Below, one piece after another: positions 41,482 through 63,795 of a stretch of DNA of 64,000 nucleotides. The translations under genes were made by a program, and so were the position numbers. Numbering within the stretch: position 1 is the stretch's first letter; each line of letters starts with the position of its first letter. Source of the stretch: Cordylochernes scorpioides (taxonomy: Eukaryota > Arthropoda > Arachnida > Pseudoscorpiones > Chernetidae); the NCBI GenBank assembly GCA_030710605.1, contig CP092874.1, positions 37,398,696-37,462,695 of the forward strand, written 5' to 3'. A model generated the notes under the pieces. The model saw nothing but the letters and a program-made list of their open reading frames with translations, searched no databases and was not told the origin of the DNA.

Positions 41482-41600
41482 GGCCACATTCGTCCAATGA
41501 GAAGGCGGGAGAGATTTGTTCACAAACAAACGAAAACAAAATTCTTTCCACTAAAACCTGAGATAAGATATGATAAGATTGCAAATATTTGTCAATATAA
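41482..41600 (-). promoter_or_regulatory. Promoter-like repeat fused upstream of LINE frame
   Basis: On the minus strand CTCATTGGACGAATGTGGCC precedes ATGTTTGTATATATATGG. The same block, CTCATTGGACGAATGTGGCC then TATATAAGAGG, is at 10004-10040 and 25832-25868. The TATA-like sequence and the first ATG overlap, so any transcript from it would start near or after the ATG. Function inferred, not shown. Confidence 0.4.
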
Positions 41601-41732: not shown

Positions 41733-41740
41733 ATCTAGTA
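41733..41740. repeat. hAT target-site duplication, left
   Basis: ATCTAGTA. It matches exactly the 8 bp at 59863-59870. Confidence 0.95.
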
Positions 41741-42395
41741 CAGGGGTGGCGAACGTGCGGCCTTAAGGCCGCATGTGGCCTTTTCTTGCCCAAGTTGTGG
41801 CCTTTTCATAAATTCAAAATTATAATTTTTGTTTCGCTGTTTTCAATTACTTTCATTATTTTATTGAAAATATCTAATACGAATGTCATATAATATATAT
41901 GATATAGTAAATGTATTTAAATTTCTAAAAGTAATTCAAGTGTCGTGCTAAAAATGAAGTACATAACTATACCACTATTTCAGCAGCGCCGATTTGCGGT
42001 CAACACTAGTACTAAAACTAAATGTAACGTCCAAATAACGTCGAGGCAAAGTAATTGCCGGTGTGTAACTGTATCAACTTTACTGAATGGTTGTTTATTT
42101 TTTTAATAAGGTAAGTTATAAGATAATACATATTACAAACATCGAACAATGTTTTCTATTGTATTGTAGTAAAATACGGGTAAATTAAAAAATTTTAATA
42201 ATCACATTGCATAATTTAAAATTTTTTATCAGTTGAACAATTATTAATATATTTAATTTTCTGCAAAAGTAAACTTATGTAAAAAAATGTCGATTTTGAT
42301 TTCAGTCCATTTCTCCCGTATTTTCAAAACACAATTTTATGTGCGGCATGGTCTTTTTATGTATAAATTTTCATAAATATTTTAATTTTAGAATC

Positions 42396-42900
42396 ATGTC
42401 TAAAAAACAAAAAAGGACTCTAAAGGACGAGAATCGATTATTTAATGAAGAATGGGAATTGCAATACTTCTTAATTAGTTCCAAAGATAAAATGGTTTGT
42501 TTGTTATTTAGTACAGTTATAACTACAATTAAAAAGTAAAATGCTAATCAACATTACATGACTCATGCGAATCATAAATATGCAATTCTTGAAGGAGAAG
42601 CACGTAAAACTATATTACAACAACTTAAAAATGAAAAGCTTCACCGGCAACAAACTTTCAATAAGTTCTTTCAACAAAATAATAATGCCACGGAAGCAAC
42701 ATACAAAGTAGCGTACATTCTTGGAAAATGGGGAAAACCATTTAGCGACGTTGAAATGATAAAAGAATGTATTGTGGAAGTGGTCAAATGCTTACATCCA
42801 GAAAAAGTAGATAAATACAAACAATTACCTCTTTCAAGAGGAACCATCACCGAACGACAACACGAATTAGCTACAAATATAAAACAACAGTTCTGTATAT
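42396..42900 (+). pseudogene. hAT transposase, N-terminal part
   Basis: The ATG at 42396 begins MSKKQKRTLKDENRLFNEEW, like ZBED5/GTF2I-repeat-type hAT transposases. The BED zinc finger is damaged: the CX2C reads VCLLF, and a TAA near 42538 precedes HYMTHANH. The frame then continues with the conserved KPFSDVEMIKEC ... LHPEK ... LPLSRGTITER block to ATNIKQQ, where it meets a (TA)n run and the nested insertion. The C-terminal part resumes 7.2 kb away at 50163. Confidence 0.8.
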
Positions 42901-43278
42901 ATATATATATATATATATATTAATAGTAATTTTTTATATTTGGAAAATAGAGGAAAAGTAAACTATATATATGTATATATATATATAAAGAAACCATTTA
43001 TTAACTGGTTAACTATCTACTACACATGGAACAAACCAAAAGTGATTAAAAATTACTAATTAAGACAATTAAGATCATAACAATTTTATATATATAGTCA
43101 CAAGATTCCAACAATTAGAATAGGGTACAATTAACTCTCAAGAGTAAAGTAAAGAAAATGCGTGAATAACATTAAGATTACACTAAAGTTAACTATTGGT
43201 TTTAATTCTGACAAAACTACGACAGATAAAGAAACCATTTATTAACTGGTATCTAATACATATGGAACAAACCAACAA
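42901..43278. other. AT-rich inserted DNA with internal direct repeat
   Basis: AAAGAAACCATTTATTAACTGG occurs at 42987 and 43228, and CAACAATTAGAATAGGGTAC at ~43110 and ~43274, forming an imperfect direct repeat about 200 bp apart. (TA)n tracts at 42895-42990. The element is unidentified. It lies between the hAT N-terminus and the gypsy element. Confidence 0.5.
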
Positions 43279-43638
43279 TTAGAATAGGGTACATGGGATG
43301 ATATCTGGACCATATACAATGTTGAGGACATAACCATCACGTATATCTTGGCTGTATAGACTTTCTGAATCTATCAGACGTTTATGATAAGCTAGGTCAA
43401 AATTATTGTACTTCGTAAATGGATACATCTGTTTGATAAGGTTCTTCAGTTGTCCAGCTGTCGTAGATCTACGTAGTTTGAATGCACGATGTGGATCTGT
43501 TCGAATACCAGCTACAAATACAAGCATCTCATCAACTTCTTCAATTTCTATAGTTGAATGATTGCTCCCCATGATCGACATGAAATGCAGAGATACTGGT
43601 TTTAAATACTTTACAGTACTTTTTAGCTCTTTCAGCAA
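43279..43638 (-). CDS. Small ubiquitin-like (beta-grasp) reading frame
   Basis: The frame is open for 119 codons from a TTG. The first ATGs give MSIMGSNHS..., about 100 residues. Residues ~38-110 have the order of a ubiquitin-like fold: hydrophobic strand (EMLVFVAGI), strand FKLRRSTT, helix AGQLKNLIKQM, then FDLAYHKRLIDSESLYSQDI and YVLNIVYG. These align by eye to ubiquitin's helix, LIFAGKQLEDGRTLSDY and LHLVL segments. There is no C-terminal diglycine, so conjugation is unlikely. Upstream in-frame sequence is coding-like but stopped by TAA. It is either a captured host fragment or part of an unidentified element. Function unknown. Confidence 0.45.
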   Translation of the reverse strand: MLKELKSTVKYLKPVSLHFMSIMGSNHSTIEIEEVDEMLVFVAGIRTDPHRAFKLRRSTTAGQLKNLIKQMYPFTKYNNFDLAYHKRLIDSESLYSQDIRDGYVLNIVYGPDIIPCTLF

Positions 43639-43950
43639 TTCTTTTTATAACAAATTTGGTAACGGTATCTTCACAAAGTTATCTTCAAACTTTTCTTTTG
43701 CATTCAAAAATGAATCTTTTAAATCTTCTTAAGCTGTAGTTATCACTCAAATTGATTTGTAAATAAAAAAAAAATTTGACAAAAATTTATGGAAATTCTT
43801 CGCTTATAGAAAGAGAAAAAAATACTTCTATTGAAAAATAATCTTTCTCTGGCGTTGATAATCTCGTCTGAATATATATGTCATAAAAAAAAAAAAGACG
43901 TATTCTAGGTACGTTACCAATTCATTCAGGCAGTCGTGGATTGAAATGAA
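43639..43950. other. AT-rich flank of gypsy LTR
   Basis: It includes possibly coding minus-strand sequence just upstream of the ubiquitin-like frame (LKDSFLNAKEKFEDNF...). Otherwise unrecognised. Confidence 0.4.
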
Positions 43951-44157
43951 TGATAAACAAAAAAAAAAACTATTTGGTTGTATTCCTTTTGTAACGATTT
44001 CTTTACATTTTAAAAATTAACTCTGTGTTTAGTTCTTTGATTATTTAAATTATAATTTTAGTTATATTATGAAAACAATATTAATAAATATTATAGTTAT
44101 GATTATAAAATTTTAATTATATTAATGAATAATAAAAATCATATTTTTATTATGTCA
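43951..44157 (-). repeat. gypsy 3' LTR
   Basis: 207 bp. On the minus strand it begins TGACATAATAAAAATATG and ends GTTTATCA (TG...CA). Preceded on the minus strand by the purine tract GGAGGGAAGAAA (44158-44169). Matches the LTR at 49959-50161. Confidence 0.85.
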
Positions 44158-44169
44158 TTTCTTCCCTCC
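44158..44169 (-). other. gypsy polypurine tract
   Basis: On the minus strand GGAGGGAAGAAA immediately precedes the TGACA start of the 3' LTR. This is the expected plus-strand primer of an LTR element. Confidence 0.7.
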
Positions 44170-44947
44170 AAGGATAAAAATTAGGGAGTAATTTTCAAAG
44201 TAAAAAAAAAGTATCATTATTATTTACATAGTTTATCAATTAAGATGGAGGATACCAATTGAAGCTATATCAATGATGCTTTTTATTTCTTCTACATATT
44301 CCTATTGGTACCTTTTTTCTTGACAGTAGCTGAAAATTATCCAATCTTATTTGAATTTATAGGTGTCTCCTTCCTATAATTCATAAGGGGATTTACCTCA
44401 TGAATTGAGTAGGCCTTCTCAGGGCTCTCAAGATTCAAAAGGTACTTTGCCACATGCCAAAAAAATATATATATTTTTGAAAATCACAAATTTATTTCTC
44501 ATAATGACAAATTGCTATCCAACATCTTGTTTCACATTTATTTTATAAAAACATAAAATAATGGGTTATTTACTTCCACATAATAAAAATATTTACACAT
44601 GAAGTTTTATTATTTACATAAAAAAAAGAATGTTCGAATATGAAATGTTCCATATAAAATTTGTGAGGGAAAAATATATAGAATCAGATGAGTGAATTTC
44701 TCAACAAATAAAATCAAAATGTAAAATATTTACAACAATTGAAAAGAAAAGTGTCAAGTTATATCTAGTATATTATTGATAACTCAAAAAAATATATAGT
44801 CCTCTATAGTCCTTGAGTGTTTTTAAAAGCACAGTTTTATATTGTAATAGTATACCTTATTTGTGCACAAAAATTATATTCTCAAGGTTTAATTTTTAGG
44901 CTAGTTATTTTTGGTATTGTCTTATTTATGTTAAGATTTTCCTGCCA

Positions 44948-47900
44948 TTATTTTGTAAGAAGAGGGATTCTACTTTTCACTACTTTAGGTGCCACTTGTT
45001 GGTTTGGTTTTTTCTCTAAAGTGGGTATTTTACTTTTTGTCAGTTTTAATTCAAATCCTTCTTTTGGGTAGTATGGCCTCAATTTGGATGAATGAATTAC
45101 CATGGTAGTTTTTCCTAAATTAGATTGGGGTTTATCAATTTCATAATTGACTGGGGATATCTGTTTTAAAATTGTAAATGGTCCAGACATTGGAGGCATT
45201 AATTTTCGGTTATCTGGATGGTAAAAGGTTTGCAACCAAACTTTATCGCCTAATTTAAAAGTGGAAGGTTGATAATGTTGTTCATATCTAATTTTATTTA
45301 TCTGATGGAATTTTAATGTATTATTATAGGCATTTGTTCTGGCAGTGTCTATAGGGGGTAAAATTCTGATTCTTTTAAGGGGGGATCATAAGGGAGCTTA
45401 CCATACAAAAGGTAAGTAGGAGTATAGCCTGTTATGGAATGGGGAGTATTATTATATTCATTTAGTACTGAATCTAACAATTTCGTCCATGGTATTGATT
45501 TTCCTTTCAAGTTATTGAATTTACATCTTAACCTGGTTATTATGGTTTGGTTAAGTCGTTCATTTAACCCATTACACTGAGGTCTTGATGATGAAGTCAA
45601 TAATTGTTTAATGTTATTGTTAATCAAATATTTTCTAAATCTTGGTGAAGTAAATGATGGTGCCCTGTCACTTAAAAATTGTTTTGGTTTTTGTATTTGA
45701 AAAATTTTGTTTAGGCAATTTATATATGAGTCAGTAGTTTGACTTTTTGAGGGGAAAGCCCAAATGTATCTAGTAGCATGATCTACGATGATGTGAAGGA
45801 ATTTCTTTGTAGAATTATAGTAATTTAGTCCACCACTGTGTCTATAGACACGAAATCAAAAGGATCCTTAGCTGGGGGGAGACTTTCCAACAGACCAAAT
45901 TTCTTCTGGTGAGATATTTTATCGAGTTGACACACCTCACAGTGTTTTACATAATTAGAAATATCTTGAATTAGGTAGGGCCAATAATAGATAGGGTAAA
46001 TTAGATATAACATTTTAGATACTCTTATATGGCCATAATCTTGATGAGCTCTTATTAATACTTTTTCTCTTAATGATGGTGGAACAACACTTTTGATTAA
46101 TCCTTTTTTCCTTAATGTTAAATTTAGTATATTTCCTATCATTAATGTTATCATCAAATTGAGCTTGTTTTAGTTCTGGGTCAGAAACAAAATGAGCTAT
46201 GGGGTATCTGCTGAGGAAATCAGCTTCTTTATTTTCAGTTCCTCTTATGTGTTTTATCTCAAAATCAAACATTGAGAGCTTTAAGCTCCATCTAAATAAT
46301 CGTCCTTTTGGGTTCTTTATGTTCTTCAAGTACTTAAGACAAGCATGGTCTGTATGGATGGTGAAATGCACGCCATCTAAGTAGGGTAAAAAGAAATCCA
46401 CAGCATCAATAATAGCAAGGCATTCTTGCTCAGTTACACAATAGTTTGATTCATAAGTTGTCATTCTACTGCTTCTATACGCTATTGGCTTAGCCCATCG
46501 GGTTGTTCTTGTTTTAGGATAGATCCGATCTGTTTTGGCTAGCATCCGTGTAAAGGTGTATAGGATATTTAGGATTATAGATAGTCAATATAGGTTTTGA
46601 GGTTATTATATTTTTTAATTTAGAAAATGCGGTTTCGCATTCTTCGTCCCATTTCCATTTTACATCTTTTTTTCAACAAATTATTCAAAGGGAGTCTGAG
46701 TTTAGCATAATTAAGGATAAATTTCGAGTAAATGTTAATAGATCCTAAAACTCGTTGTAAATCCTTTTTATTCCTTGGAGAATTCAATTTTCTAATCGTT
46801 TCTATATTATTAGTGCTGGGTGAAAATTGATGGTTTGATATTTCATATCCTAGAAAATAAATCTGATAAGTAGCGAATTTACATTTACTTAGTTTTAGCT
46901 TAATATTTTCCTTTATGCAAATATCTAAAATTACTTTTAAATGGGTCAAATGTTCCTGAAAATTATTTGAAAATATAATGAAGTCATCAAAATAATTCAT
47001 GCAAAAATCAACATAATATTTATTTAAAATTTGCTTTAAAACTTTTTGGAATTGACTTGGACTATTTTTTAATCCAAAAGATAATTTATTAAATTCGTAA
47101 AGTCCGTGAGTGGTAGTAAAAGCTGTGTATTCTTTATCATCTGGGTGTATATCTAAATGGTGATAACCTGATAAAAGATCTAGTGTAGTGAAGATATTAG
47201 CTTCTGAAAGCTTATCTAATATAAAATCTATTCTTGGTATGGGCTCAGAATCTCTTTTTATTACCTATCATTTAATTTTCTGTAGTCTATTACTAGTCGA
47301 ATTTTACCTTCATTTCGCTTATTTACCAACATAGCAGGGGATGCATAGGAGGAATAAGATGGTCTAATGACATTATATTTTAAAAGTTCTTCAATCTGTC
47401 TTTTAATTTCAATGTTGTCCGAGAAGGAAGGTCTAAAAGGCTTTAATGAAATAGGTGTTTGTGAGGTAAGTTTAATTCTAATTGGATCTGCTTTTTAATA
47501 TGTCCTATATCCATTTTATGGGCAGCAAACGCTTCCTTATTTTCCTTAATTAATTTTATTAAATCAGATTTTTCATATGGTGAAAGTTTTTCATCAAATT
47601 CTACACTATTAAAATTTCTAAAATCATTTTCATTAGGAGGAATAATAGATTGAAATAAAGGAATTACATTATGATGTGTATAATTATTATTATTAGGGTT
47701 ATGGTAATTAACATTAAGAATTCTACCAAATTGAGTAATTGTAAAATTTTGAATATCAATGTCTAATTTAAATAAGCTTATATGGTGTAGAGAAAGCAAT
47801 ACATATTGCAAATCAATATCAGAGGAATAAAAATCAATATCTCTAGTAATAGATCCTATAGTTGTATTAATATTAATTTTTGAATTTATATTTAGCATAC

Positions 47901-48033
47901 CGGATGTCTGATTAATAAGAGGTAAATTATTAAAAGCAACATAGTTTGGTTGTATCTTATCTAACATGTGTTGAGGAATTATCGAGAATGTACAGCCAGT
48001 ATCTATGAGAGCTATAATACCGATATTATTCAT
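44948..48033 (-). pseudogene. gypsy pol: protease-RT-RNase H-integrase, broken
   Basis: In order on the minus strand: retropepsin ALIDTGCTFSII (from 48033); RT starting QIEELLKYNVIRPSYSS and KIRLVIDYR, a frameshift near 47270, then TTLDLLSGYHH and NYFDDFIIFS (FDD for YVDD); RNase H with YVTEQECLAII-type and IHTDHACLKYL motifs, HIRGTENKEADFLSR. Next the integrase HHCC region (HQDYGHIR..CEVCQLDK), first core Asp in FVSIDTV, a break, then SSRPQCNGLNERLNQT containing the core Glu. The C-terminus has SGPFTILKQ and HSSKLRPYY (GPY/F module). Several stops and frameshifts make it inactive. Confidence 0.85.
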
Positions 48034-48060
48034 ATTTAGATTTATATACAGACCTTGGCG

Positions 48061-48907
48061 TCAGGAGTGTTGAGGCGGAGCTGGTCGGCATTTGCTCGAA
48101 GGGGCTGCTGTCTGCGTCAAGGCATCCATGGATCGAGACGGCACGGACATGAAGCTTGCAGCTGGGGAGGCTTGTACGGCCTTCTCCCGAAACCAGCACC
48201 TATTCTCAGGATGAAAGCGTCCGGCATGTCCCCGGTTCAGGCAGATTCGGCAGGGACGTCTTTTAGTACCATAGTCAATAAGGCTTCTACCTGGATGTCT
48301 CCATTGCTTTTGTTGTACTTCCATTCTTGGGGCTGTTTCCCTTTTAAAAGATGACTTCTCCATTTCCTCATGTCGATCAATCATTTCTAATTTCGATTCT
48401 AACGCTATCCATTCTTCTGGAGTGTCCACTTTTGATGTAATAACCAGTTTTCTAAAATCAGTTGTTAACCCATTTGTCAGGCCTTCCATCAAATTTTCTT
48501 TTGTAATCTTTGCTTTAGAAGCTAGGGACGTTTTTTCCTTAAAATAATTTTCAATCCCCTTTTCTGGATCATATTTCAATTCAATAAAAGCCGTGAATGG
48601 ATTAACTTCTTGTTTATAGAAATGAGACAATAATATATTTTCTAGTTCAGGCCAATTTGTAATATCCAAGCAGTTCTCCACATAAAAATCAAAAGCCTCT
48701 TCTACTAAAAAAATCTCCAACATTTTTCAATTTCCAGGTATCATTTAATTCTTCTAAGAAAGCCTTCTGGTTGAAATATTTGAGCCACGATTTTAGGGCT
48801 AGACTTCCGTTAGGGTTAAATTTACATACGTTTAGTTTAGTGTTATCTGACATATTTCTTTCTATTTGTAATGTGTTACTTTTACTTCTGTCTTTTAACT
48901 TTGGCAT
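48061..48907 (-). pseudogene. gypsy gag
   Basis: ATG at 48907 (MPKLKDRSK...), frameshift near 48715, then a 220-residue frame with the retrotransposon-gag helical core (WPELENILLSHFYKQEVNPF...). The C-terminal nucleocapsid-like motif is CRICLNRGHAGRFHPENRC, a non-canonical zinc knuckle. The last ~180 bp (48061-48240) are clearly more GC-rich than the rest of the element. Gag would form the particle around the element's RNA. Confidence 0.75.
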
Positions 48908-49066
48908 TTATATTTAATATATAAAGAAATTTTTTAATTTTCAAGTTGTAATTTTGAATTTTATAAATTATATAATAATATATATATATATTTTATTTTC
49001 CAAAATTGTATTTATTTTTTTATTACTTTTTAAAACAAACAGTTTTTGCATACCTAAAATTTAACG

Positions 49067-49958
49067 ATTATTATTATTATTATTCTGTACATAACCCGGA
49101 CTCCTGGAGCGTATGAAAGTCGCCAACTGTCCGGGTTTGTCTTCTGACTTATTGTCTATTTGTTGCGGTTGACATCCAACTGATTAGATGTCGCCAGGCT
49201 GTTTTATTTTTGGGGAGGTTCTTCAATGCTTCTTGGTTGAATGGGCTGGTGTTAAGTAGAGTTGCAGTCTGAAATCTCTGAAGATGGTAGGATGGGCAAC
49301 TGAATAGGAGGTGGTCGACTGTTTGATTTTCTTGGTGACAGTGTTGGCATACGGGGTCGTTGTTTTTGGAGGTTCTGGCGATGTCGGCTTGAACGAAGCC
49401 ATGTCCTGTCAGAATTGTAGAGGTGATGTTGCAATATTTTAGTTTTGGGAGAATTGAGATTAGAAGACTAGGAGATGCAGCTACTCTTCTGAGGTTTCTT
49501 GTAGCATGGTCTGTGGTGTAGAGGTCGGTCCATAGTTGGAGGGCGAACTGTTTGCTTTGAGAGCGGACATATTTCCTAGGAAGGGTTGCGAAGTGTAAAG
49601 GCAATTTGGATTGAGCTGCGGCTTTGGCGACTTCATCAGCCTGTTCATTTCCAACGATGCCGCAATGACTCCGGACCCAGCAGAGTTGAACATTGTCCAG
49701 AGTATTGAGGTTTCTGATTATCTCTGCAGTAAGTGGGGTTCTAGGGATATCGGGGTGACAGATGGCATGTAGAGCTGCCTGGCAGTCGGAAGCAATGACA
49801 AAGTCTTGTCGCGGCATGATCCTAATAGATCTGGTGGCATAAAGAATGGCCAAAAGTTCCGCCTGGAAGGAGGTACAGCTGTTGTGGAGTTTAAGTTTCA
49901 GTGGTGGATAGGGAGGTGGGAGCACCGCTGCTGCGCCAACCCCATTGGTTGACCGATA
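49067..49958 (-). mobile_element. 5'-truncated LINE inserted beside gypsy 5' LTR
   Basis: Minus-strand LINE with an (AAT)n tail at 49067-49084. It begins abruptly at the LTR boundary (49958) in the RNase H domain. Confidence 0.75.
49149..49958 (-). pseudogene. LINE RNase H-zinc finger C-terminus
   Basis: Open frame from the truncation point. RNase H starts at STNGVGAAAV, followed by SFQAELLAIL (Glu), ASDCQAAL (Asp) and NEQADEVAKAA (Asp). The C-terminal finger is CQHCHQENQTVDHLLFSC. The RT half is absent. A different family from 39445-41481 (only motif-level similarity). Confidence 0.8.
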
Positions 49959-50161
49959 TAAACAAAAAAAACTATTTGGTTGTATTCCTTTTGTTAAGGA
50001 TTTCTTTACATTTGTAAAAATTAACTCTGTGTTTAGTTCTTTGATTATTTAAATTATAATTTTAGTTATATTATGAAAACAATATTAATAAATATTATAG
50101 TTATGATTATAAAATTTTAATTATATTAATGAATAATAAAAATAATATTTTTATTATGTCA
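49959..50161 (-). repeat. gypsy 5' LTR
   Basis: Matches 43951-44157 with few differences. Its inner end (GTTTATA) is abutted by the LINE insertion and lacks the final CA. Confidence 0.8.
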
Positions 50162-50162
50162 T

Positions 50163-51483
50163 ATATATATAAGATTATTAAAGAAGAAAATATATATTTC
50201 TCCATAGCATTGGATGAATCCACAGACAATACCAATTCAGCACAGGTTCTATTTTTATTTGAGCTATTACTGAGGATTTTCGATGTTTTGAAGAGTTGCT
50301 TGCATTAGGAACACTTTCAGGCAGGACACGAGGAATAGACATCTTTGAGAACTTCAAAATAAAAATTTGCGAAGCAGGGTTAAATATAAATAATTTAGTA
50401 AGTGTGTGTACCGATGGTGCACCAGCCATGGTAGGAAAGCGAGAAGGTTTCATTTCGTTATTAAAAAATAATATGCTAATTTAGAAAACTTGATTTCTTT
50501 TCATTGTATTTTTCACCAACAAAACCTATGTGCTAAGTCGGCTAGTTTGAACGATACTTTAGAAAAAATTATTGGTATTGTAAATTTTATTCGATCAAAT
50601 TCAATGCGTCATCGTCAATTTCGAGATATAATAATGTCCGATAATGACACCTTCAATGGAGACTTACCATATCATAGCAAAATACGTTGGTTATCAAGAG
50701 GACAAGTTTTGCTAAAAATATTCACCCTGCGTCAACAAATAATTAAATATTTTGAAGAACAAAAGAAATATTGCGATTTATCAGATAAAGAATTTTGTAG
50801 AAATGCTGCCTTTTTATGTGACATGACAATGAAGCAAAATGAATTGAATTTAAACTTGCAGGGAAAAACTAAATATATATACGAAATGTGGCAAAAAATT
50901 CAAGCTTTTCGAAAAAAACTTTTATTCTTTAAATCTTTACTAGGTGTCGATTAGAAATTTCTAAAGAACATTTCCCACAGTTATCGGAAATTATGATGGA
51001 GCAAAATTATTCCCCATAAAATTTGGATGAGTATATTTCTGTTCTGGATATATTAATTGAAGAATATAATAAAAGGTTCTTAGATTTAAAAAAAAAACAT
51101 GTTTTCACACTTATAAATTAACTTTCGACCCAGACCTTGTTGATATCGACGTAGAGCCCAAAGAATATCAAATGGAATTATTTGAGATAGGAGAAGATAA
51201 TATCTTTAAATCACAATTCGATTCAAAAAAAGATCCTATTGAAATATGGAAGACTGCAGTTATTTATCCTCGTCTAAGACAACACGCACGAATAATTCTT
51301 TCATGTTTTGGAAGTACATATTGCTGCGAGGCAACATTTTCATACATGACTCAAATTAAAAACCGCCTAAGAAGTCAAATAAGTGATGTTCATTCGAAAG
51401 ATCAACTTAAATTACGTACCACGTCAATTGAACCAAATATTTATTTTTTGTCATCCAATACACAACCACAGAAATCCCATTAA
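50163..51483 (+). pseudogene. hAT transposase, catalytic and dimerisation part
   Basis: Resumes with KIIKEENIYFSIALDESTD (conserved LDEST catalytic-region motif), frameshifts, then LVSVCTDGAPAMVGKREGF (second Asp region), FHCIFHQQNLCAK (conserved CxxH), WLSRGQVL and FFKSLLG. After a degenerate stretch (50955-51170) comes the hAT C-terminal dimerisation block YPRLRQHARIILSCFGSTYCCEATFSYMTQIKN to a stop at 51483. Similar to ZBED5/GTF2IRD2-type transposases. At least three frame breaks. Confidence 0.88.
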
Positions 51484-51531
51484 ATTTTCTGGATTGTAAA
51501 ATTGAATGTCAAATTTTTTGGAATTAATTAA

Positions 51532-51798
51532 TGTTGGTGTTTTTGGGGGTAAAAAAGAGAAAATGTTACTTAAATATATTTTTAATATTATCTTTATGCA
51601 TAGAAACTACAAAAGTAAAATTTAAGAATTAAGAAGAAATACAAAAAACAAGAAAGGATCAAGAAGGCACTAACTACGTTGCCAAATTGTTAATTTAACA
51701 TATGCTAGCTAATATTATCATCATCAATTTATATTTATTCATATATTTATATAATTTATTTACACAGAGAAAAATTATTTGAATTAATATTCCTAACA
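51532..51798 (-). repeat. copia 3' LTR
   Basis: 267 bp. TGTTGG...CCTAACA on the plus strand. Nearly identical to 55181-55447. The minus-strand purine tract AAAGGGGGGATT (51799-51810) precedes it. Confidence 0.95.
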
Positions 51799-51891
51799 AA
51801 TCCCCCCTTTAATTCAATCTCATTTTTTCTTCAGAAATATAAACAGTTTAAAAAATCAAACATAGATGGCGTTACCTCCCCTTGCTTTCAC

Positions 51892-53337
51892 TTATATACA
51901 AGCTTTTGTTTGGAATAAGATTGATCTCTGAATCTTGATCTCTTGATCTTGATCACTGAAATGATCCCTTAAAAATTTTTGAAGCCTGCGGTGCTTTAGC
52001 TGTGCTTGGTGCTGCCCTGGTTCCCTCATAAACGGCGCTCTCGCCATCTTCTCCCCCGGGGTGCCCACTTGCCCTTCCGGCGCCTCTCCAGCCCTCTCCT
52101 TGGCCCTCCACTGCGGCGGGCGCATGGTGACTCTCAAAGATGTATTGTGCCTTAAAATGCTTATCCGAAAGCATGTAGAAGGCGGATTAATTGTCAAGTT
52201 TTTGTTTGGCATAAGCCACATTTTACATAAAGTGAAAACATATATCAAAAAACATATTTTAAAAATATAACAAGTTAATTTATGTACACACATTTTTAAT
52301 AAAGCTATATATATCTTTCCATATTTCTTTTTATCAATTACCTTTGAATTATTAAAATTTTCCAAATCAGTATATACATCAAGGGGTGTATGAACAGTTT
52401 TACAATCTAACATATTATATTTTAATAAAAGTTTTTCAATATAATTTTGTTGTTTTAGAATTATTTTGTCATTATATTTTAATATTTCAATTCCTAAAAC
52501 ACTTAAAAGATTAGCATTTTTCTTTATTTTAAAACAAAGTGTTAACTTATTTAAAATATCATTTAAAATTTTAGAATCAGTATTACAAATAATGATATCA
52601 TCAACATAAAGTCCCAAAAGAAGAATTGAGTCATTATTTTGGTAAGAAAATAAGCATTTTTCTGAATTAAAAATTTTAAATCCTATCTGAAGAAGATATT
52701 TAGTAAAGGTTTCATAAAAGACTCTGCCTGCTTGTTTAAGTCCATAAATGGCCTGATCAAGTTTACAAACAAATTTCTTACCTTCTTCTTGATATTCAAA
52801 TCCTTTAGGCTGTGACATTTATATAGCCTCTTCCAACTTACCATACAAAAAGGCAGTTTCTATATCAAAATGATGAATATGCAAATTTTTCATTGCTGCA
52901 AAGACGATTAAAGTCCTTAGAGAATCTGATTTTATCACAGGTGAATAAGTTTCTGAATATTCTACTCCAAATTTTTGTGAACATCCTACTGCAACTAATC
53001 TAGCTTTATATATGGGATTTAAAGGATCATGGCTATTTTTAATGGAAAACACCCATTTTGATTTGATAGGCTTAATGGTTTTAGTCATAGGTAAAACATC
53101 CCACACCTTGTGATTTTTTAAAGAAACTATTTCCCCTTTCATGGCTTGAAGCCATTTTTCTTTATCTGGAGAGTTAATTGCCTCTTCATAATTAGTTGGT
53201 ATAATTGGTAATGAATCAACCTTCATTACACTATCTCCTGGATGGTAGGTAGGATCAGAAGTGGTGTCATCTTGTGATGTGTCTTCATCAGATAATGATG
53301 ATTCATAGTAAAATCCTTGTTCAGGAGTAGGTCTCAA
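51892..53337 (-). pseudogene. copia reverse transcriptase, 3' part of pol
   Basis: Frame 53337-52819 carries YEEAINSPDKEKWLQAM, NHKVWDVLP, KSKWVFSIK, YKARLVAVGCSQK and HHFDIETAFLYGKLEE (catalytic Asp). A stop, then 52818-51892 continues MSQPKGFEYQEEGKKFVCKLDQAIYGLKQ-type sequence with LLGLYVDDIII (YVDD). The frame then passes to a GC-rich stretch (~52000-52140) not resembling RNase H and ends at 51892. A copia pol normally finishes with RNase H, so the 3' end has been replaced. Confidence 0.85.
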
Positions 53338-53372
53338 GTTGTAGACATTTTTATCTTCATCTGGCTCATTAC

Positions 53373-55066
53373 TTATGGATTCTGGAACATTTCCTTGGTG
53401 AATAGGAATTGGTTCTTCTTCTTTTTGATTTTTGTACCTTTTATGTTTTCTATAAGTTCAATAAATTCCTTTAGTTTGGCAAAGGTTTCTAATTTGCTTT
53501 TAAGGAACTTTGGGAATATTTTCCTTGAAAAGTCATCAACTATGTTCAGCACATATATTGCTCTGCCAATGGATTCATGCTGAAATGGACCTATTAAATC
53601 CATATGAATGAGATCAAGGGGTTTGGTTGATTGCTTTGAATCAATCTCTTTAAATGGCAATCTAGTAAACTTTGATTGAATGCATGTGATACATGGTTCT
53701 AAGTTATTAATTGTTGAACAACAGAATCCATACACCATGGAGTCTTTTAGCATCATATTCATATAATTTTCATTTATATGTGCGAGGCGTTTGTGCCAAA
53801 TTTTCCAAATATTTTCTTGTGTTTTGAACACATTTTCTTCTAGTTTAATGTTTGCACATGCATCAATTGTATAAATGTTATCTTCCCTTTTTGCAGTTAT
53901 AATGCTGGATCCATTGTTATCTATTATCCTTGCACCATTCTCATCAAATATAATCTGTTTTTCATCTTCAGTTATTTTACTTACTGATATTAAATTATTG
54001 TTGAGTTCAGGTACATATAGAACTTCTTTTAGTGTTAAAAGATGATTATCATCCTGATAAATTTCAACAGTGTCAATACCTTTTGATTTGACGAATCTAT
54101 CATCAGGAAGAGTGATTTTTCTGCTATCATCTTGAAGATCATCCATTAGATTAATGTCTTTAGACATATGGCTTGTTGCTCCACTGTCTAGTATCCACTT
54201 GCATTTATTGCTGAACTCTGGAGAACTTAAGTTCATGGCATTTTCTTGATTATGATTTTCTCCTATCAAAGAAGCCCTAGAAGGATATTGTTTATTTTTT
54301 GAAAATGTTTGTTTGGGGATTGTTTGTATAGAATTCCCTTGATTGTTTTCTTTTCTTTTGTTAACTGGGTTGAACCAGCATACTGCTGCTTTATGTCCAA
54401 ACTTTTGACAAATGAAGCATTTGGGTTTTCTTTCTCTATTAGAATCACTTGATTTTTTCTTAAAGTTTTTGTTAAATTTATGGCCCATATTATATGCAGC
54501 ATTTTCATCCTTGTTGTTCTTGTTTCTTTCTTCATGGAGCTCAAAAATTCTTCTTATATCAGAAATAGCAGCATCTGGGTAATTGTCAAATTGCATTGAG
54601 ACAAGATTGTATTTTGGGGGTAGCCCTCTAATAAGGCTGTGATGAATTATTCATCTTCTATTGATCCACCCAAAATTCTTGCTTCTTGCAATAATTTCTC
54701 TGCTTTAAGCAAATATTGTTCCCAGGTTTCCTCTTTTTTCATTGTTAATCTAGATACATTGTTTTTAGCCTCTATGCATTTTCTCTTTATGTTACCCTCA
54801 TATCTAGAATGCAAAGCAGTCCAAATTTCTTTACTTGTTTTGCATGTTAAAATTAAGCATACTTGTGTGTCATCCATTGCTCAAGTTATTATCCCTCTAG
54901 CTTGGGCATCTCTTCTTTTCCAATCGACAGTTATTTTTTCATCTTTTGGAGGATCTTTTATAAAGCCATCTAGATCTTTGCCTTCCAAAATACAAATGAT
55001 GCGAAATTTCCAACTTGTGAAATTATTTCCATCGAATTTTTGGATATTCATCGATGGTTCAGCCAT
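53373..55066 (-). pseudogene. copia gag-protease-integrase (integrase core deleted)
   Basis: Begins MAEPSMNIQKFDGNNFTSW (55066), with an internal TGA near 54880, TAA near 54647 and a frameshift near 54610. The gag core has EIWTALHSRYEG; the zinc knuckle CFICQKFGHKAAVC is canonical CX2CX4HX4C. Protease is WILDSGATSHM. The integrase zinc region is WHKRLAH...CITCIQSK, the first core Asp is in LIHMDLIGPF and VDDFSR follows. After FIELIEN the sequence jumps to the integrase-RT linker, so the second half of the catalytic core, including the Glu, is missing. Confidence 0.85.
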
Positions 55067-55162
55067 TTTGAATTTTTACTTAATATGTTCTTTTCGAACC
55101 TTAAAGATATTTTCTATCTTTCTTTTTTCAAAATGGCGTTTGTTTACCTTTTTTTGCGTAAA

Positions 55163-55179
55163 CCACGATCTGCTACCAA
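55163..55179 (-). other. copia primer-binding site
   Basis: Minus strand TTGGTAGCAGATCGTGG directly after the 5' LTR end (CACCAACA). It is similar to the copia/Ty1 half-tRNA initiator-Met priming site. Confidence 0.65.
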
Positions 55180-55180
55180 T

Positions 55181-55447
55181 TGTTGGTGTTTTTGGGGGTA
55201 AAAAAGAGAAAATGTTACTTAAATATATTTTTAATATTATCTTTATGCATAGAAACTACAAAAGTAAAATTTAAGAATTAAAAAGAAATACAAAAAACAA
55301 GAAAGGATCAAGAAGGCACTAACTACGTTGCCAAATTGTTAATTTAACATATGCTAGCTAATATTATCATCATCAATTTATATTTATTCATATATTTATA
55401 TAATTTATTTACACAGAGAAAAATTATTTGAATTAATATTCCTAACA
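55181..55447 (-). repeat. copia 5' LTR
   Basis: 267 bp, equal in length to the 3' LTR with only isolated differences (for example AAGAAG versus AAAAAG near 55280), indicating a fairly recent insertion. Confidence 0.95.
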
Positions 55448-55560
55448 ATTAATTGTATGTCATTTTGAAAAAATAAACTATTTAATTGCAAAGAAAATTA
55501 TATATTTTAATTTTGTATATAAATCCCTTTAATTAAATCATACATATATTTATATATATA

Positions 55561-56173
55561 CTAGACGAATGACCCGGGCAACGCCCGTGTTTTACCCGAT
55601 TGAATGTTTTTATTCCAATACTATTTGTTACAATTATAAATTGGAGCCGTGGATGTCACTCTTGTGAAACGTCCCGCTCCAAACTTTACATGTACATTAG
55701 GTCAGCTGGTATTACCCCTCATTTTCACCGCTAGAGGCGCGAGCGAATTGACTTTTTGTAAATATACATAATTATAAAGATAGAAGCTTCTATAGAAGAT
55801 AATGATCATAATAATGATGCGCGCGCATCCGTGACAGCGATGAGGAATTGAGGAAAGACGGTCGTGACTATATATTAATAATAAAATAATAATAATAATA
55901 TAATAATAATTATTATTATTATCATTAGATAATGATAATGATCATAATGATGATGCGCGCGCATCCGTGACATGAGGAATTGAGGAATTGATTGTTGACG
56001 GTGGAAAGACGGTCGTGACTATATATGTTGATAATAAAATAATAATAATAATATAATAATAATAATTATTATTATTATCATTAGATAATGATCATAATGA
56101 TGATGCGCGCGCGTCCGTGACATGAGGAATTGATTGTTGACGATGGAAAGACGGTCGTGACTATATATGTTGA
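55561..56173 (-). mobile_element. Helitron array unit 1
   Basis: On the minus strand it starts TCAACATATATAGTCACGAC and ends in the CGGGCGTTGCCCGGG-type hairpin and GTCATTCGTCTAG. It contains two internal repeats of the module GATGATGCGCGCGCATCCGT ... GGTCGTGACTATATA separated by (TAA)n/(ATT)n. Non-coding. Confidence 0.75.
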
Positions 56174-56850
56174 CTAGACGAATGGCCCGGGCAACGCCCG
56201 GGTTTTACCCGAGTGCGTATATATTTTAAAAATGTTTTAATTAAAATACTATTCGTTACAATTATAAATTGGCGCCGTGGATGTCTCTCTTATGAAACGT
56301 CCCGCCCCAAACTGTGTGTCTCTTGAAAATATAAAAATAAAAATGTGAGCGGAAAAATATGTCCAGGGTAGCTTAGTGGTCATGGCATCTGCCCGGTAAG
56401 CGGAAGGTCGTGGGTTCGATTCCCATCCTTTGACACTTTTTTTATTTTATCCATTCTGACCAAAATCTATCCGTGAACTTCACACAGTGAACTTCACACA
56501 GACAGAATAAGGCAATTATATAAGTATATAATCCAAATTGTGCCTTATCACACACTATTTTTTTATTTGGCCTTATTACCTTGTGTTTATAATCTATGAC
56601 GTAATGCCGGCGGCGCGCCCCCGTTGGCTGCCGGCGAGCACGTGACCTCCCTGTGCGCGCGCATCCGTGACAGCGATGAGGAATTGAGGAAAGACGGTCG
56701 TGACTATATATATTAATAATAATAATATAATAATAATAATTATTATTATTATCATTAGATAATGATAATGATCATAATGATGATGCGCGCGCATCCGTGA
56801 CAGCGATGAAGAATTGATTGAGGAAAGACGGTCGTGACTATATATGTTGA
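56174..56850 (-). mobile_element. Helitron array unit 2, carrying tRNA-like and foldback pieces
   Basis: Begins immediately after unit 1 (CTAGACGAATG at 56174) and ends ..TATATGTTGA at 56850. It carries a tRNA-Thr-like sequence (56362-56434), half of the TAAACACAAGG foldback element (about 56545-56600), and a GC-rich CCGGCGGCGCGCC segment. Confidence 0.75.
56362..56434 (+). tRNA. tRNA-Thr(GGT)-like sequence inside Helitron
   Basis: Acceptor TCCAGGG against CCTTTGA (mismatched), D-arm GC..GGC, anticodon stem TCTGC/GCGGA with loop CCGGTAA (anticodon GGT), T-arm GTGGG-TTCGATT-CCCAT. A box TAGCTTAGTGG and B box GGTTCGATTCC are canonical, so pol III transcription is plausible. Related to 38964-39036, which has the intact 3' acceptor strand. 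Followed by a T-run. Confidence 0.6.
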
Positions 56851-57168
56851 CTAGACGAATGACCCGGGCAACGCCCGTGTTTTACCCGATTGAATGTTTT
56901 TATTCAAATACTATTTGTTACAATTATAAATTGGAGCCGTGGATGTCACTCTTGTGAAACGTCCCGCTCCAAACTTTACATGTACATTAGGTCAGCTGGT
57001 ATTACCCCTCATTTTCACCGCTAGAGGCGCGAGCGAATTGACTTTTTGTAAATATACATAATTATAAAGATAGAAGCTTCTATAGAAGATAATGATCATA
57101 ATGATGATGCGCGCGCATCCGTGACAGCGATGAGGAATTGAGGAAAGACGGTCGTGACTATATATTAA
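56851..57168 (-). mobile_element. Helitron array unit 3
   Basis: CTAGACGAATGACCCGGGCA... to ..GTCGTGACTATATATTAAT. Contains one GCGCGC module. The 5' terminal bases are altered at the junction with unit 4. Nearly identical inside to 37545-37864 and unit 1. Confidence 0.75.
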
Positions 57169-57678
57169 TGACGAATGACCCGGGCAACGCCCGGGTTTTA
57201 CCCAATTAAATGTTTTTATTCAAATACTATTTGTTACAATTCTAAATTGGCGCCGTGGATGTCACACTTGTGAAACGTCCCGCAAACTTTGTGTCTGAGA
57301 AGCGATATTTTTATAGAAAGATGATCTGGCTTTTGTTTTCTGCTCGAATGAATGTTTTTTTGTTAGAATTTTGTTCCTGCGTACAAAATAATGAACTGGT
57401 TTCACCCGTGGTCTCTGCTTTTTGGAATTTTTCCCGATATAATTTTGTATCTGATAATCAAACATGATACAGCAATATCGTCATCATCATTTTATGACTA
57501 AAAATATATAGTTTTAATAATTGATTTATATATATTTTTAAATAGCCTATCGTCTTCCCCGTATTTTTTTACCTATGTATGGAAATTTTGGTTTGAATTA
57601 GTGAACTACTGCGAATTTGTATACCGGACATACAAACAAACATACAAACAGACAAACATTCATTTTTATATATATAGA
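57169..57678 (-). mobile_element. Helitron array unit 4 (TCTATATATA subfamily)
   Basis: The same element as 19721-20231 in opposite orientation. Minus strand starts TCTATATATATAAAAATGAA at 57678 and ends in the ACCCGGGCGTTGCCCGGGT hairpin. The CTAG terminus is damaged at the junction. Its internal plus frame 57255-57467 is also open in the other copies but is not recognisable. Confidence 0.8.
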
Positions 57679-58825
57679 ATTTACTCTTCATTGTTGGCTT
57701 TTTATATTATATTTACTCTTCATTGTTGGCTTTTTATCCTACATTCACTCTGTTGGCTTTTTATATTACATTTACTCTTCATTGTTGGCTTTTTATCTTA
57801 CATTCACTCTTCATTGTTGGCTTTTTATATTATATTTACTCTTCATTGTTGGCCTTTTATCTTACATTATTCTTCAAGGTTGGCTTTTTATATTACATTC
57901 ACTCTTCATTGTTGGCTTTTTATCTTACATTCATTCTTCATTGTTGGCTTTTTATATTACATTTACTATTCATTGTTGGCTTTTTATCTTACATTCACTC
58001 TTCATTGTTGGCTTTATATCTTACATTCATTCTTCATTGTTGGCTTTTTATATTGCATTCACTCTTCATTGTTGGCTTTTAATCTTACATTCATTCTTCA
58101 TTGTTGGCTTTTTATATTACATTTACTCTTTATTGTTGGCTTTTTATCTTACATTCACTCTTCATTGTTGGCTTTTTATATTATATTTACTCTTCATTGT
58201 TGGCTTTTTATCTTACATTTATTCTTCATTGTTGGCTTTTTATATTGCATTCACTCTTCATTGTTGGCTTTTAATCTTACATTCATTCTTCATTGTTGGC
58301 TTTTTATATTACATTTACTCTTCATTGTTGGCTTTTTATATTACATTCACTCTTCATTGTTGGCTTTTTATATTATATTTACTCTTCATTGTTGGCTTTT
58401 TATCTTACATTTATTCTTCATTGTTGGCTTTTTATATTACATTTACTCTTCATTGTTGGCTTTTTATCTTAAATTCATTCTTCATTGTTGGCTTTTTATT
58501 TCATATTTACTCTTCATTGTTGGCTTTTTATCTAACATTCATTCTTCATTGTTGGCTTTTTATATTATATTTACTCTTCATTGTTGGCTTTTTATCTTAC
58601 ATTTATTCTTCATTGTTGGCTTTTTATATTATATTTACTCTTCATTGTTGGCTTTTTATCTTACATTTTATCTTCATTGTTGGCTTTTTATATTACATTT
58701 ACTCTTTATTGTTGGCTTTTTATCTTACATTCATTCTTCATTGTTGGCTTTTTATATCATATTTACTCTTCATTCTTGGCTTTTTATCTTACATTCATTC
58801 TTCATTGTTGGCTTTTTATATTATA
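57679..58825. repeat. 32-bp minisatellite, block 1
   Basis: Two alternating 32-bp units, ACTCTTCATTGTTGGCTTTT + TATATTATATTT and the ..TATCTTACATTC.. form. The block abuts the 5' terminus of Helitron unit 4. Open in all three plus frames (hydrophobic LAFYIIFTLHCW-type repeats), an artefact of stop-free units. Confidence 0.95.
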
Positions 58826-58906
58826 CTAATGATGATGCGCGCGCATCCGTGACATGAGGAATTGAGGAATTGACGGTGGAAAGACGGTCGTGACTATATA
58901 TGTTGA
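58826..58906 (-). repeat. Helitron 5'-end module between minisatellite blocks
   Basis: GATGATGCGCGCGCATCCGT ... GGTCGTGACTATATATGTTGA. The same module as in the Helitron units, ending at their TCAAC terminus. Confidence 0.7.
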
Positions 58907-59492
58907 TTATATTATATTTACTATTCATTGTTGGCTTTTTATCTTACATTCACTCTTCATTGTTGGCTTTATATCTTACATTCATTCTTCATTGTTGGCT
59001 TTTTATATTGCATTCACTCTTCATTGTTGGCTTTTAATCTTACATTCATTCTTCATTGTTGGCTTTTTATATTACATTTACTCTTCATTGTTGGCTTTTT
59101 ATCTTACATTCACTCTTCATTGTTGGCTTTTTATATTATATTTACTCTTCATTGTTGGCTTTTTATCTTACATTTATTCTTCATTGTTGGCTTTTTATAT
59201 TACATTTACTCTTCATTGTTGGCTTTTTATCTTAAATTCATTCTTCATTGTTGGCTTTTTATTTCATATTTACTCTTCATTGTTGGCTTTTTATCTTACA
59301 TTCATTCTTCATTGTTGGCTTTTTATATTATATTTACTCTTCATTGTTGGCTTTTTATCTTACATTTATTCTTCATTGTTGGCTTTTTATATTATATTTA
59401 CTCTTCATTGTTGGCTTTTTATCTTACATTTTATCTTCATTGTTGGCTTTTTATATTACATTTACTCTTTATTGTTGGCTTTTTATCTTACA
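58907..59492. repeat. 32-bp minisatellite, block 2
   Basis: Unit order, including the odd variants ACTATTC, GCTTTATATC and TTTCATATT, reproduces part of block 1 (from about 57955). Block 2 is therefore a copy of block 1 rather than an independent expansion. Confidence 0.9.
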
Positions 59493-59786
59493 TTATTATA
59501 TCTTATTATTATTAATATCATTAGATAATGATAATGATCATAATGATGATGCGCGCGCATCCGTGACATGACGGTGGAAAGACGGTCGTGACTATATATG
59601 TTGATAATAAAATAATAATATAATAAATGATAATAATAAAATAATAATATAATAATATTTATTATTATTATTATCATTAGATAATGATAATGATCATAAT
59701 GATGATGCGCGCGCATCCGTGACATGAGGAATTGATTGTTGACGGTTGAAAGACGGTCGTGACTATATATGTTGATAATATATATA
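59493..59786 (-). repeat. Two further Helitron 5'-end modules with (ATT)n
   Basis: Modules at about 59519-59602 and 59680-59776, each TCATTAGATAATGATAATGA ... GCGCGCGCATCCGTGACATG ... GACTATATATGTTGA, separated by AT-rich trinucleotide tracts. Confidence 0.7.
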
Positions 59787-59862
59787 TATATATGGATGCG
59801 GCCTTCTCAAAAATGGTAAAATGAAAATTGGCCTTCTAATATAAAAAGGTTCGCCACCCCTG

Positions 59863-59870
59863 ATCTAGTA
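59863..59870. repeat. hAT target-site duplication, right
   Basis: ATCTAGTA, identical to 41733-41740. Confidence 0.95.
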
Positions 59871-59888: not shown

Positions 59889-59961
59889 AGTTTCTGCCAG
59901 GGCTCGAACCTGGGACCTTCCGCGTGTTAGGCGGATGTGATAACCACTACACCACAGAAAC
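59889..59961 (-). tRNA. tRNA-Val (anticodon AAC)
   Basis: Minus-strand cloverleaf: acceptor GTTTCTG/CAGAAAC; A box TGGTGTAGTGG; anticodon stem TCCGC/GCGGA with loop CTAACAC (anticodon AAC); T-arm CCAGG-TTCGAGC-CCTGG with B box GGTTCGAGCCC. The A-run at 59879-59888 is its T-run terminator. The hAT element lies ~27 bp beyond its 3' end. Likely functional. A single copy in the window. Confidence 0.95.
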
Positions 59962-61862: not shown

Positions 61863-62005
61863 TAAGATTCTATAAAAGTATAACAAATATAAAGTTTTGC
61901 GGAGGAGCCTCTTTTATTATAAAAGAGGCTCCTCCGCAAAACTTTATATTTGTTATACTTTTATACTAATTTATACGGAGTTTACCTGTAGAGTAAGATT
62001 CTATA
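61863..62005. repeat. 119-bp palindromic insertion with 12-bp direct repeats
   Basis: TAAGATTCTATA at 61863-61874 and 61994-62005 flanks 119 bp absent from region A, where one TAAGATTCTATA is present. Most of the insert is a perfect inverted repeat: arms 61873-61916 and 61920-61963 (44 nt each) with a 3-nt loop, including GGAGGAGCCTC/GAGGCTCCTCC. Non-coding. Confidence 0.9.
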
Positions 62006-62171
62006 TTAAAACAAAAATAACTTATTTTATTAACGATTAAAAGACATTTTCTTTCCTATTAATTATTTTATTATATATAAAAACGTATTAAAATAGCGGA
62101 ATAATTGATATTAATAATAATAAAAATTACATTTAAAAAAATTTAAATTATTTGTAAAAAAAAAAAAAAAA

Positions 62172-62244
62172 CGAGCCTGCCAGGATTCGAACCTGGAATC
62201 TTCTGATCCGTAGTCAGACGCGTTATCCGTTGCGCCACAGGCCC
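62172..62244 (-). tRNA. tRNA-Arg (anticodon ACG), copy A'
   Basis: Identical in sequence to 3421-3493, including the adjacent T-run terminator. Confidence 0.95.
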
Positions 62245-62375
62245 ACGACTAATGGTCCTTTATAAATAAATATTAAATACGAATTCGAAAATTAATGCCT
62301 TGTATCAATATTGAAGTGAAAACCTCAGGCCTCCTGAGAACCGACTGATTGAAGAATTAAGAAACAAAAAAAGAA

Positions 62376-62726
62376 ATAATCCTCACCCAATCAGATAAGG
62401 AGGACAAGCAGGGATTCTGGACAAGACTGATTACCATAGTAAAATGCTAAACATCATTGAAGATCCAGCAACCTTCAAACTCATTTCCAAAGAAGAAAAA
62501 CCCCGAGAATACTTTTTATTCAAAAAAGAACTCAAGAAGATTCATAAGGAACATAATTTCGAGCGAAGAATTGAAAGACTTTTTGTCTAATATGCAAATC
62601 GATGCCTTCATATATGGCCTCCCTAAAATTCATAAATCAAGTGTCCCCTTAAGACCCATAGTGGCCTTCTACCATTCCCCAATAACGCCTCTCTCCAATT
62701 TCATCTCAACCTTTCTCAGCCCATAA
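62376..62726 (+). pseudogene. Penelope-like RT fragment (copy A')
   Basis: Same as 3625-3975, but the key motif reads YGLPKIHK (Pro kept) and SSEELKDF for SSKELKDF. It therefore preserves the older sequence at both sites. Confidence 0.75.
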
Positions 62727-62822
62727 TCAAGCAGTAGAATTCTCGGTTTTCAATCTACAACACCACCACCTTCATAGAAGAAATACTCAAGAGTGTTTAT
62801 ATAAACTAAGAGGTGGGTCAAC

Positions 62823-63001
62823 TCTTGCCCAAAATGTAGCTTGGCACCTGCAGCTCAAGAACACATTGCATTAGACTTGCATTGTACTAAACAGGACCTT
62901 TGGGAGAGGCCGCTGTTTATCATCAAACAGCTCGAGGAGCATGAACTCGTGGAATTCGTGTAATCTTAGCACAAAGGGTTAAGAAACAACAACGACAACA
63001 A
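62823..63001 (+). mobile_element. LINE 3' end with AAC-type tail (copy A')
   Basis: Same as 4072-4258, with tail AAACAACAACGACAACAAG. Confidence 0.65.
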
Positions 63002-63633
63002 GAGATGGGCCAAGCCATCAGTAACTTTTAGTTGCAAGATCAGGAGATTCCTTTCTCTTAATTTTACAACCTGATCCCAGTACAGAATCACTTTGGTGTA
63101 CTCTTCTTTTTTTTTTTTCATATTTTATAATTAGGTTTATCCATTTGTATTATCATCATTGAATGTAAATATTTAAAAAATATATAATTTCCATAGCAGA
63201 CTCCATGACGAACCCCTGTATATAAGACTGGATGTCTTAATAAATACTTATGTGCATGCGTGTGATCCTGACAACTAATAATGGGATAGTTTCCAGCTAT
63301 ATCCTCCAATATGGGTGGTCAGAAAACCGTTTTAACCGAGAAGAGGGTCTTTATGAGGGTGAATTAGCGTCCTCTCTGCACTCTTATCCCTAGCAAGATG
63401 TTGGCACGGCAAGTGAGCGGTTTTGAACAGCAATTTATTTCTCCCGTGTGCGCCATTGTCGGTAGGTGAGAAGTGATGTACTTCTTATTTACATATAACC
63501 TGATGATAACCTTTGACAGGTTGGGAATTAAGATAAACTACAAGAAACAGGAATATTGTGAACGAGTTTTTTGAAATTAATCAAGAGTGATTCTTATTTT
63601 AAGAATTATAACTAATAAACACGAGAGAATATC
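63002..63633. other. Intergenic repeat-like DNA (copy A')
   Basis: Copy of 4259-4880. No gene recognised. Confidence 0.5.
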
Positions 63634-63795
63634 CACTCATGGACAAAACTTAAGGAAGTTGTACCTTTTAGCATATATATCGGGACAATAACTCTGAAAG
63701 ATATTACAGTAACCTTTATTGAAGACACACGAGATAAAATAAAAACGACCAATGATATGAAAGACTTTCCACTTTCTTAAGTTTGTCCAAAAGTG
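63634..63795. mobile_element. Tc1/mariner-like MITE (copy A')
   Basis: Same element as 4881-5042, CACTCATGG ... CCAAAAGTG|TA. Confidence 0.65.

Follow-up and report, generated by a model that had tools for sequence, protein, structure and literature searches.

A nested 18.1-kb hAT transposon and its duplicated copies beside a tRNA-Val gene in a pseudoscorpion

The window analysed here, a stretch of 64,000 nucleotides from contig CP092874.1 (C12 in what follows) of the pseudoscorpion Cordylochernes scorpioides, holds two sequences that resemble the ends of a hAT transposon, 18.1 kilobases (kb) apart and with parts of several other mobile elements between them. The locus raises the question of whether these ends belong to one insertion and, if they do, in what order its contents arrived. 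C12 carries a duplicated unit in at least seven copies, and the nest, adjoining a transfer RNA (tRNA) gene, tRNA-Val, is one of them. Because this array holds units with and without several of the insertions, the relative timing of events can be tested by empty sites and by the divergence of sibling copies, beyond what nesting and long terminal repeat (LTR) identity allow. The locus very probably arose by a single hAT insertion beside the tRNA-Val gene, serial insertions within it, duplication of the unit to at least seven copies, the late arrival of a Helitron, and private changes in individual copies.

One hAT element and its landing site

The hAT element extends from 41741 to 59862. It is bordered by 8-base-pair (bp) target-site duplications, ATCTAGTA, at 41733–41740 and 59863–59870. 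Its terminal inverted repeats, CAGGGGTGGCGAAC at 41741–41754 on the forward strand and the reverse complement of CAGGGGTGGCGAAC at 59849–59862, start with CAG, pair at 14 of 14 bases and each occur once in the window. The 8-bp duplication, the short terminal repeats that start with CAG, and a transposase dimerisation region (Pfam PF05699; E=5.9e-6 on 51073–51483, 26.4 bits against a cut-off of 21.4) place the element in the hAT superfamily. An earlier note on this DNA, made from the letters alone, had described an 18.1-kb hAT element with intact ends and a transposase split into halves about 7.2 kb apart; the duplications and 14-bp repeats lie where it put them, and the insert that separates the halves (42898–50169) measures 7.27 kb. 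The core consists of four forward-strand pieces that sum to about 2.7 kb: 41741–42897, with the N-terminal half of the transposase frame; 50170–51531, with the C-terminal half and the dimerisation region; 55453–55560, recognised by its match to family copies; and 59776–59862, which carries the right terminal repeat. Pfam found no family on 42540–42923, in the N-terminal part of the transposase, and a PDB search with the middle of the transposase gave nothing useful.

Uninterrupted relatives occur elsewhere in the genome (2.62 Gb in 24 contigs). The first 160 bases of the hAT element, used as query, gave 1044 candidates, 40 of which were scored; from outside the C12 array, eight members of the family were fetched (L021–L028). 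Three of these (L021, L022 and L023) are full length, read straight through the point of the 7.27-kb insert, and match the window from end to end in the order 41741–42897, 50170–51532, 55448–55558 and 59782/59784–59862, although the match of the last piece begins at 59778 in L022. They carry insertions of their own (160 bases in L021, others in L022 and L023), and the window core differs from the three by 68/2645, 79/2648 and 81/2645 substitutions (2.6–3.1%). The comparison that the earlier note had suggested for the core of about 2.7 kb thus yields a piece-by-piece match to uninterrupted copies on other chromosomes. Short deletion forms that keep both ends make up four more members (L024, L025, L027 and L028), and the right end of L026 was not found in the 6.5 kb fetched. 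Both ends are present in seven of the eight members. In five of these seven the left and right 8-bp duplications match exactly; they are one base off in L025 and two in L023.

The target consensus of the Buster family of hAT elements is given as nnnTAnnn in the portion of the source that concerns it (PMC3517528). A TA stands at positions 4–5 of the left duplication in all nine elements (the window copy and L021–L028) and is missing from these positions in the right duplication of L025. By target consensus alone, the assignment points to a Buster-type hAT; the 8-bp duplications with a central TA, the short terminal repeats and a core of less than 4 kb are also like those of the Buster family. 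Near-identical left ends of the hAT element are clustered at C2:163917222–163993396, C21:58677792–58693756 and C7:35348330–35427685, so other arrays may carry this family.

The tRNA-Val (AAC) gene of the host unit lies on the reverse strand at 59889–59961, starting 19 bp past the right ATCTAGTA. It was identified by ARAGORN and by Rfam on a short stretch (63.8 bits), and was not listed by Rfam on the entire window. The left flank, on which Rfam gave no match, is part of a repeat dispersed in the genome (635 candidates, 40 scored). When the right end was searched together with the flank beside it, some matches came from occupied units and others started at the first base of ATCTAGTA. The empty site L034, whose sequence was read, consists of the left flank, one ATCTAGTA, and the right flank with the tRNA-Val gene. 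Two further empty sites are indicated by coordinates only. At C12:37354713 the matches of the two flanks share 8 bases; at C12:37329838, also placed at about C12:37329841, they share approximately 8 to 11 bases. L035 has a different left flank, and L036 has about 1.3 kb between the flanks.

These sites bear on whether the two termini come from two different hAT copies that a rearrangement brought 18 kb apart, the finding that the earlier note had named as fatal to its claim. The distance between the termini and the divided transposase frame are the sole points in favor of such a rearrangement. The empty site L034 has a single ATCTAGTA with both flanks, the flanks are identical at all five scored C12 left ends, and the core pieces match uninterrupted hAT copies; an origin from two copies is exceedingly improbable. 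The termini are the two ends of the same insertion, with the other elements inside it, and the hAT element comes first in the chronology, as the earlier note had proposed.

Copies of the unit and the insertions they share

The window copy has its left end at C12:37440436. Left ends in the same orientation mark the copies designated S1 (C12:37370212), S3 (C12:37490600), S4 (C12:37535443) and S5 (C12:37656583); S0 (C12:37256476) lies on the opposite strand, and S6 (C12:37618079) is added by the right-end matches. The C12 matches listed comprise five left ends, all in the same orientation, and six right ends, of which five are complete and one is partial. S1, S3, S4 and S5 were read over 23 kb each, and the right ends of S1 and S6 were read too (L030, L032). 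Every copy carries the expected insertions at the places read. S1, S3, S4 and S5 are colinear with the window through a gypsy-like element and a long interspersed nuclear element (LINE), and S3, S4 and S5 also through a copia element; the right ends of S1 and S6 show copia, S0 shows the left part of the gypsy-like element, and the unread gap of S1 equals the matching window stretch in length. Since the whole nest was duplicated, insertions common to the siblings are older than the duplications.

The first insert in the hAT element begins with a layer that the earlier note had left unmentioned, a low-copy stretch of about 1 kb (42898–43878) with (TA)n on both sides, which is absent from L021–L023. 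At the (TA)n to the left of this stretch, S0 is longer by about 300 bases (L041 2486–2814). Possibly the hAT element landed already loaded with the 1-kb stretch, and perhaps with the gypsy-like element, so that part of the nest would be older than the landing by the tRNA gene. Such a preloaded arrival is compatible with the array, where no unit with the hAT element but without its cargo has been seen, and with the genome search, which revealed no other copy of the stretch to mark its source. Against it, the search (with 42988–43880) found the stretch in six places, all in the C12 array, and the three full-length hAT copies elsewhere, among eight fetched of more than 1000 candidates, are without it. 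A loaded arrival is quite unlikely on this evidence, and the preferred reading is that the stretch entered after the landing.

The gypsy-like element and the LINE together occupy 43879–50161, both on the reverse strand. The left (3') LTR of the gypsy-like element (43879–44157) is missing the middle piece of other family members. Its internal region (44158–48990) has broken frames, with a gag-like part at 48061–48726 and a reverse transcriptase at 46620–47264, and its right (5') LTR (48991–50161) is missing an outer piece and is interrupted by the LINE. In other members of the family (1257 candidates, 40 scored), the LTR is about 370 bases long and runs from TGTCATAA to TTATGTCA. The LTRs have TG...CA ends, and the target duplication falls in an unreadable (TA)n; a solo LTR pair elsewhere (L047/L050) has TACA on both sides, as judged by eye. 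Pfam gave 96 bits for RVT_1 and 23.5 bits for Retrotrans_gag, the latter under the cut-off of 24.1. The LINE is represented by a 3' part with RNase H and a zinc-binding region (49068–49956, ends approximate). It sits between two parts of the right gypsy LTR and is therefore younger than the gypsy-like element, the order that had been read from the window before.

The copia element (51532–55447, reverse strand; LTRs at 51532–51798 and 55181–55447) and the gypsy-like element lie side by side in the hAT element, neither inside the other. An RVT_2-type reverse transcriptase, a pre-integrase domain and a 5-bp ATTAA duplication (51527–51531 and 55448–55452) identify it as copia (PF07727, PF13976, PF22936); RNase H was not found in it by Pfam, and the copy is incomplete. 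Its LTRs differ at 1/268 positions in the window, S4 and S5 and at 2/267 in S3, and the comparable parts of the gypsy LTRs differ at 2/188 positions in the window and S5 and at 0/189 in S3. The earlier note had called the copia element recent. Its near-identical LTRs (1/268), as compared with the 2.6–3.1% divergence of the hAT core, bear this out, and its ATTAA duplication is confirmed, but its place relative to the gypsy-like element is not fixed by the LTRs: LTR identity alone does not order the two in the nest.

Other differences distinguish the copies from one another. The middle piece of the left gypsy LTR is missing in the window, S3, S4 and S5 and kept in S0 and S1, and a 4-base loss beside copia is common to S3 and S6. 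Substitution counts in the gypsy interior and in copia agree with the grouping by shared events. In the gypsy interior, substitutions number 8/4766 between the window and S4, 7/3682 between the window and S5, and 8/3659 between S4 and S5, as compared with 26/4789 between the window and S3, 26/4786 between the window and S1, and 24/4784 between S1 and S3; in copia, the window differs from S4 at 11/3912 positions, from S5 at 7/3913, and from S3 at 35/3914. Private to S1 are two LTR-flanked insertions, one of 7422 bases (LTRs of about 1000 bases, 99.5% identical) and one of 6129 bases (LTRs of 362 bases, 99.7%). S4 has an LTR-flanked insertion of 4423 bases (LTRs of 184 bases, 100%) and a piece of 114 bases, and has lost 49881–50011. 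S5 has a 1680-base insertion with Helitron-like ends within the minisatellite described below and has lost 45011–46117.

The Helitron composite and its minisatellite

The remaining interruption of the hAT core is a composite non-autonomous Helitron insertion (55561–59775, reverse strand), with its TC end at 59775 and its CTAG end at 55561. The TC 5' end, a hairpin before the CTAG 3' end, and a target between A and T without duplication are the marks of a Helitron. Two exact CTAG|TC junctions, 56173/56174 and 56850/56851, divide the composite into head-to-tail blocks of 613, 677 and 2925 bases; a fourth 3' end, near 57170, lacks the CTAG. A 32-bp minisatellite of 1.8 kb (57679–59494, forward strand), interrupted near 58828–58906, is part of the third block. 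No Rep/helicase frame appears among the listed open frames of 55561–59775, which were not scanned against Pfam, and the block is accordingly non-autonomous at best. A tRNA-Thr (49.1 bits), perhaps captured, lies in the middle block at 56361–56436.

Among the six right parts read, those of the window, S4 and S5 contain the block, and those of S1, S3 and S6 lack it and have an uninterrupted A|T. Its absence from three of the six copies indicates that the Helitron array and the minisatellite are one late insertion, so that two apparent layers arrived in one step. The earlier note had listed a gypsy element with a LINE in it, a copia element, a Helitron array and a minisatellite as nested layers; all of these elements are present, and the separation of the last two was not supported. 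The composite could instead be ancestral and have been deleted in S1, S3 and S6, as the instability of minisatellites and the deletions elsewhere in S4 and S5 might suggest. The sites in S1, S3 and S6 are, however, uninterrupted and free of remnants, like that of L021, the sequences of S1 and S3 diverge from the window group, and a single gain is more probable than exact loss in three copies. Ancestral presence followed by loss is very unlikely by comparison with a late gain of the composite.

Parts of the composite recur elsewhere in the genome, which indicates that it was assembled elsewhere and that its parts arrived together. A search with the edge between a second Helitron-like end and the minisatellite (57600–57700, with the edge at 57678) gave 1164 candidates; of the 40 scored, 34 are identical over 101 bases, three of them in the C12 array. 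The Helitron 5' unit, too, recurs as a dispersed tandem repeat (1242 candidates, 40 scored). L064, on C22, one of the 34 places with the identical edge, reproduces a large part of the composite (94.6% over 1266 aligned bases, 95.3% over 800), includes the interruption of the minisatellite, and has a TC end that follows an A. Helitrons with repeated ends and inner tandem arrays are known from the oyster (PMC8268682) and from a review (PMC12628747). Like those described in the relevant portions of these sources, the composite has repeated 5' ends, holds a microsatellite and a short tandem array, and spreads as a unit; unlike them, the window copy has three CTAG|TC blocks and a 1.8-kb minisatellite of 32-bp units, and no helicase frame was seen in it.

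Order of events and the small open frame

In the proposed history, a Buster-type hAT element would have inserted once at ATCTAGTA, 19 bp from the tRNA-Val gene, in a repeated unit on C12. The 1-kb stretch would then have entered it at a TA site, the gypsy-like element would have landed at the right edge of this stretch, and the LINE would have entered the right gypsy LTR, while copia would have landed separately, behind the transposase frame. Duplication of the entire unit to at least seven copies would have followed. The 4.2-kb Helitron composite, with its tandem ends and minisatellite already aboard, would have entered the common ancestor of the window copy, S4 and S5 at a site between A and T, after which each copy would have gained private insertions and deletions. 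The single hAT insertion, the empty site, and the shared and unshared insertions are seen directly in the array. We infer the precise sequence in which the 1-kb stretch and the gypsy-like element arrived, and likewise that the siblings arose by duplication and not by conversion into existing units.

Several observations weigh against this history. In hAT piece 1, S5 differs from S3 at 4/1156 positions and from the window at 9/1156; this closer likeness to S3 suggests conversion or recombination between units. The left gypsy LTRs of S3 and the window differ at 7/278 positions. Only the C-terminal part of the transposase was recognised by Pfam, and L064 has no recognisable CTAG end (at most 2 mismatches). 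For S0 the reading covers just the left part (42166–45303) and for S6 just the right end, and the copies are known from the assembly alone.

The mechanism is an ordinary one, consisting of hAT cut-and-paste, serial insertion, segmental duplication and further insertion, and events of this kind are already well documented. Duplicated nests whose copies bear additional insertions have been described in Drosophila (Bergman et al., 2006; PMC1794594). In the relevant sections of that account, the high-density regions of D. melanogaster resemble the present locus in their mixed-family nests, tandem or segmental duplication, private insertions, and amplification of neighboring cellular genes. Unlike the nests described there, this one has a hAT element beside tRNA-Val as its outermost layer, empty-site units that persist in the array, and a low-copy stretch inside. 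A literature search in one library returned no paper that combines nested elements, hAT, segmental duplication and tRNA, which is not a claim that none is in print. The locus stands out for how complete a test it allows, a single array offering empty as well as occupied units for several layers, and for an unexplained small gene.

That small gene is an open frame of 121 amino acids on the reverse strand of the 1-kb stretch (43279–43644), identical in all six copies. The copies vary in nine substitution columns and one gap column, none of them inside the frame; by our own uncorrected arithmetic, on columns that are few and clustered, such frame-free variation has a chance of about 0.01 to 0.04, and selection is not claimed. 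Elsewhere in the genome the frame has a single match, a 102-amino-acid open frame on C7 (L063 1501–1806), 42% identical over residues 25–115. Pfam matches at E up to 10 are leads only: YukD (0.18) for the window protein, and DUF1648 (0.049) and Rad60-SLD (0.3) for the C7 relative. They hint weakly that the frame is perhaps ubiquitin-like. The predicted structure of a 97-residue frame in 43279–43644 has a mean predicted local distance difference test score of 47.5, too low for a fold comparison; a small-frame search of solved structures gave a best E of 1.1, and no relatives were confirmed in viral contigs or in bacterial and archaeal genomes. One may speculate, although it is unlikely, that the 1-kb stretch is a gene of cellular or foreign origin that has persisted nowhere in this genome but in the hAT nest, where it was captured and multiplied with the array, its frame unbroken amid decay. 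If so, the nest would be both a refuge and an amplifier for a small, perhaps ubiquitin-like gene.

Directly left of the hAT element, a LINE has a long open frame of 701 amino acids with reverse transcriptase and RNase H (39445–41550). A minisatellite-rich tandem duplication of about 16 kb (5263–20964 and 21121–37262) fills half of the window, and its longest matching pieces are 97.5–99.1% identical. The start of the window (3242–5247) matches its end (61993–64000) at 99.3%, with one tRNA-Arg in each (3420–3494 and 62171–62245), as would follow if the window covered one period of a larger array.

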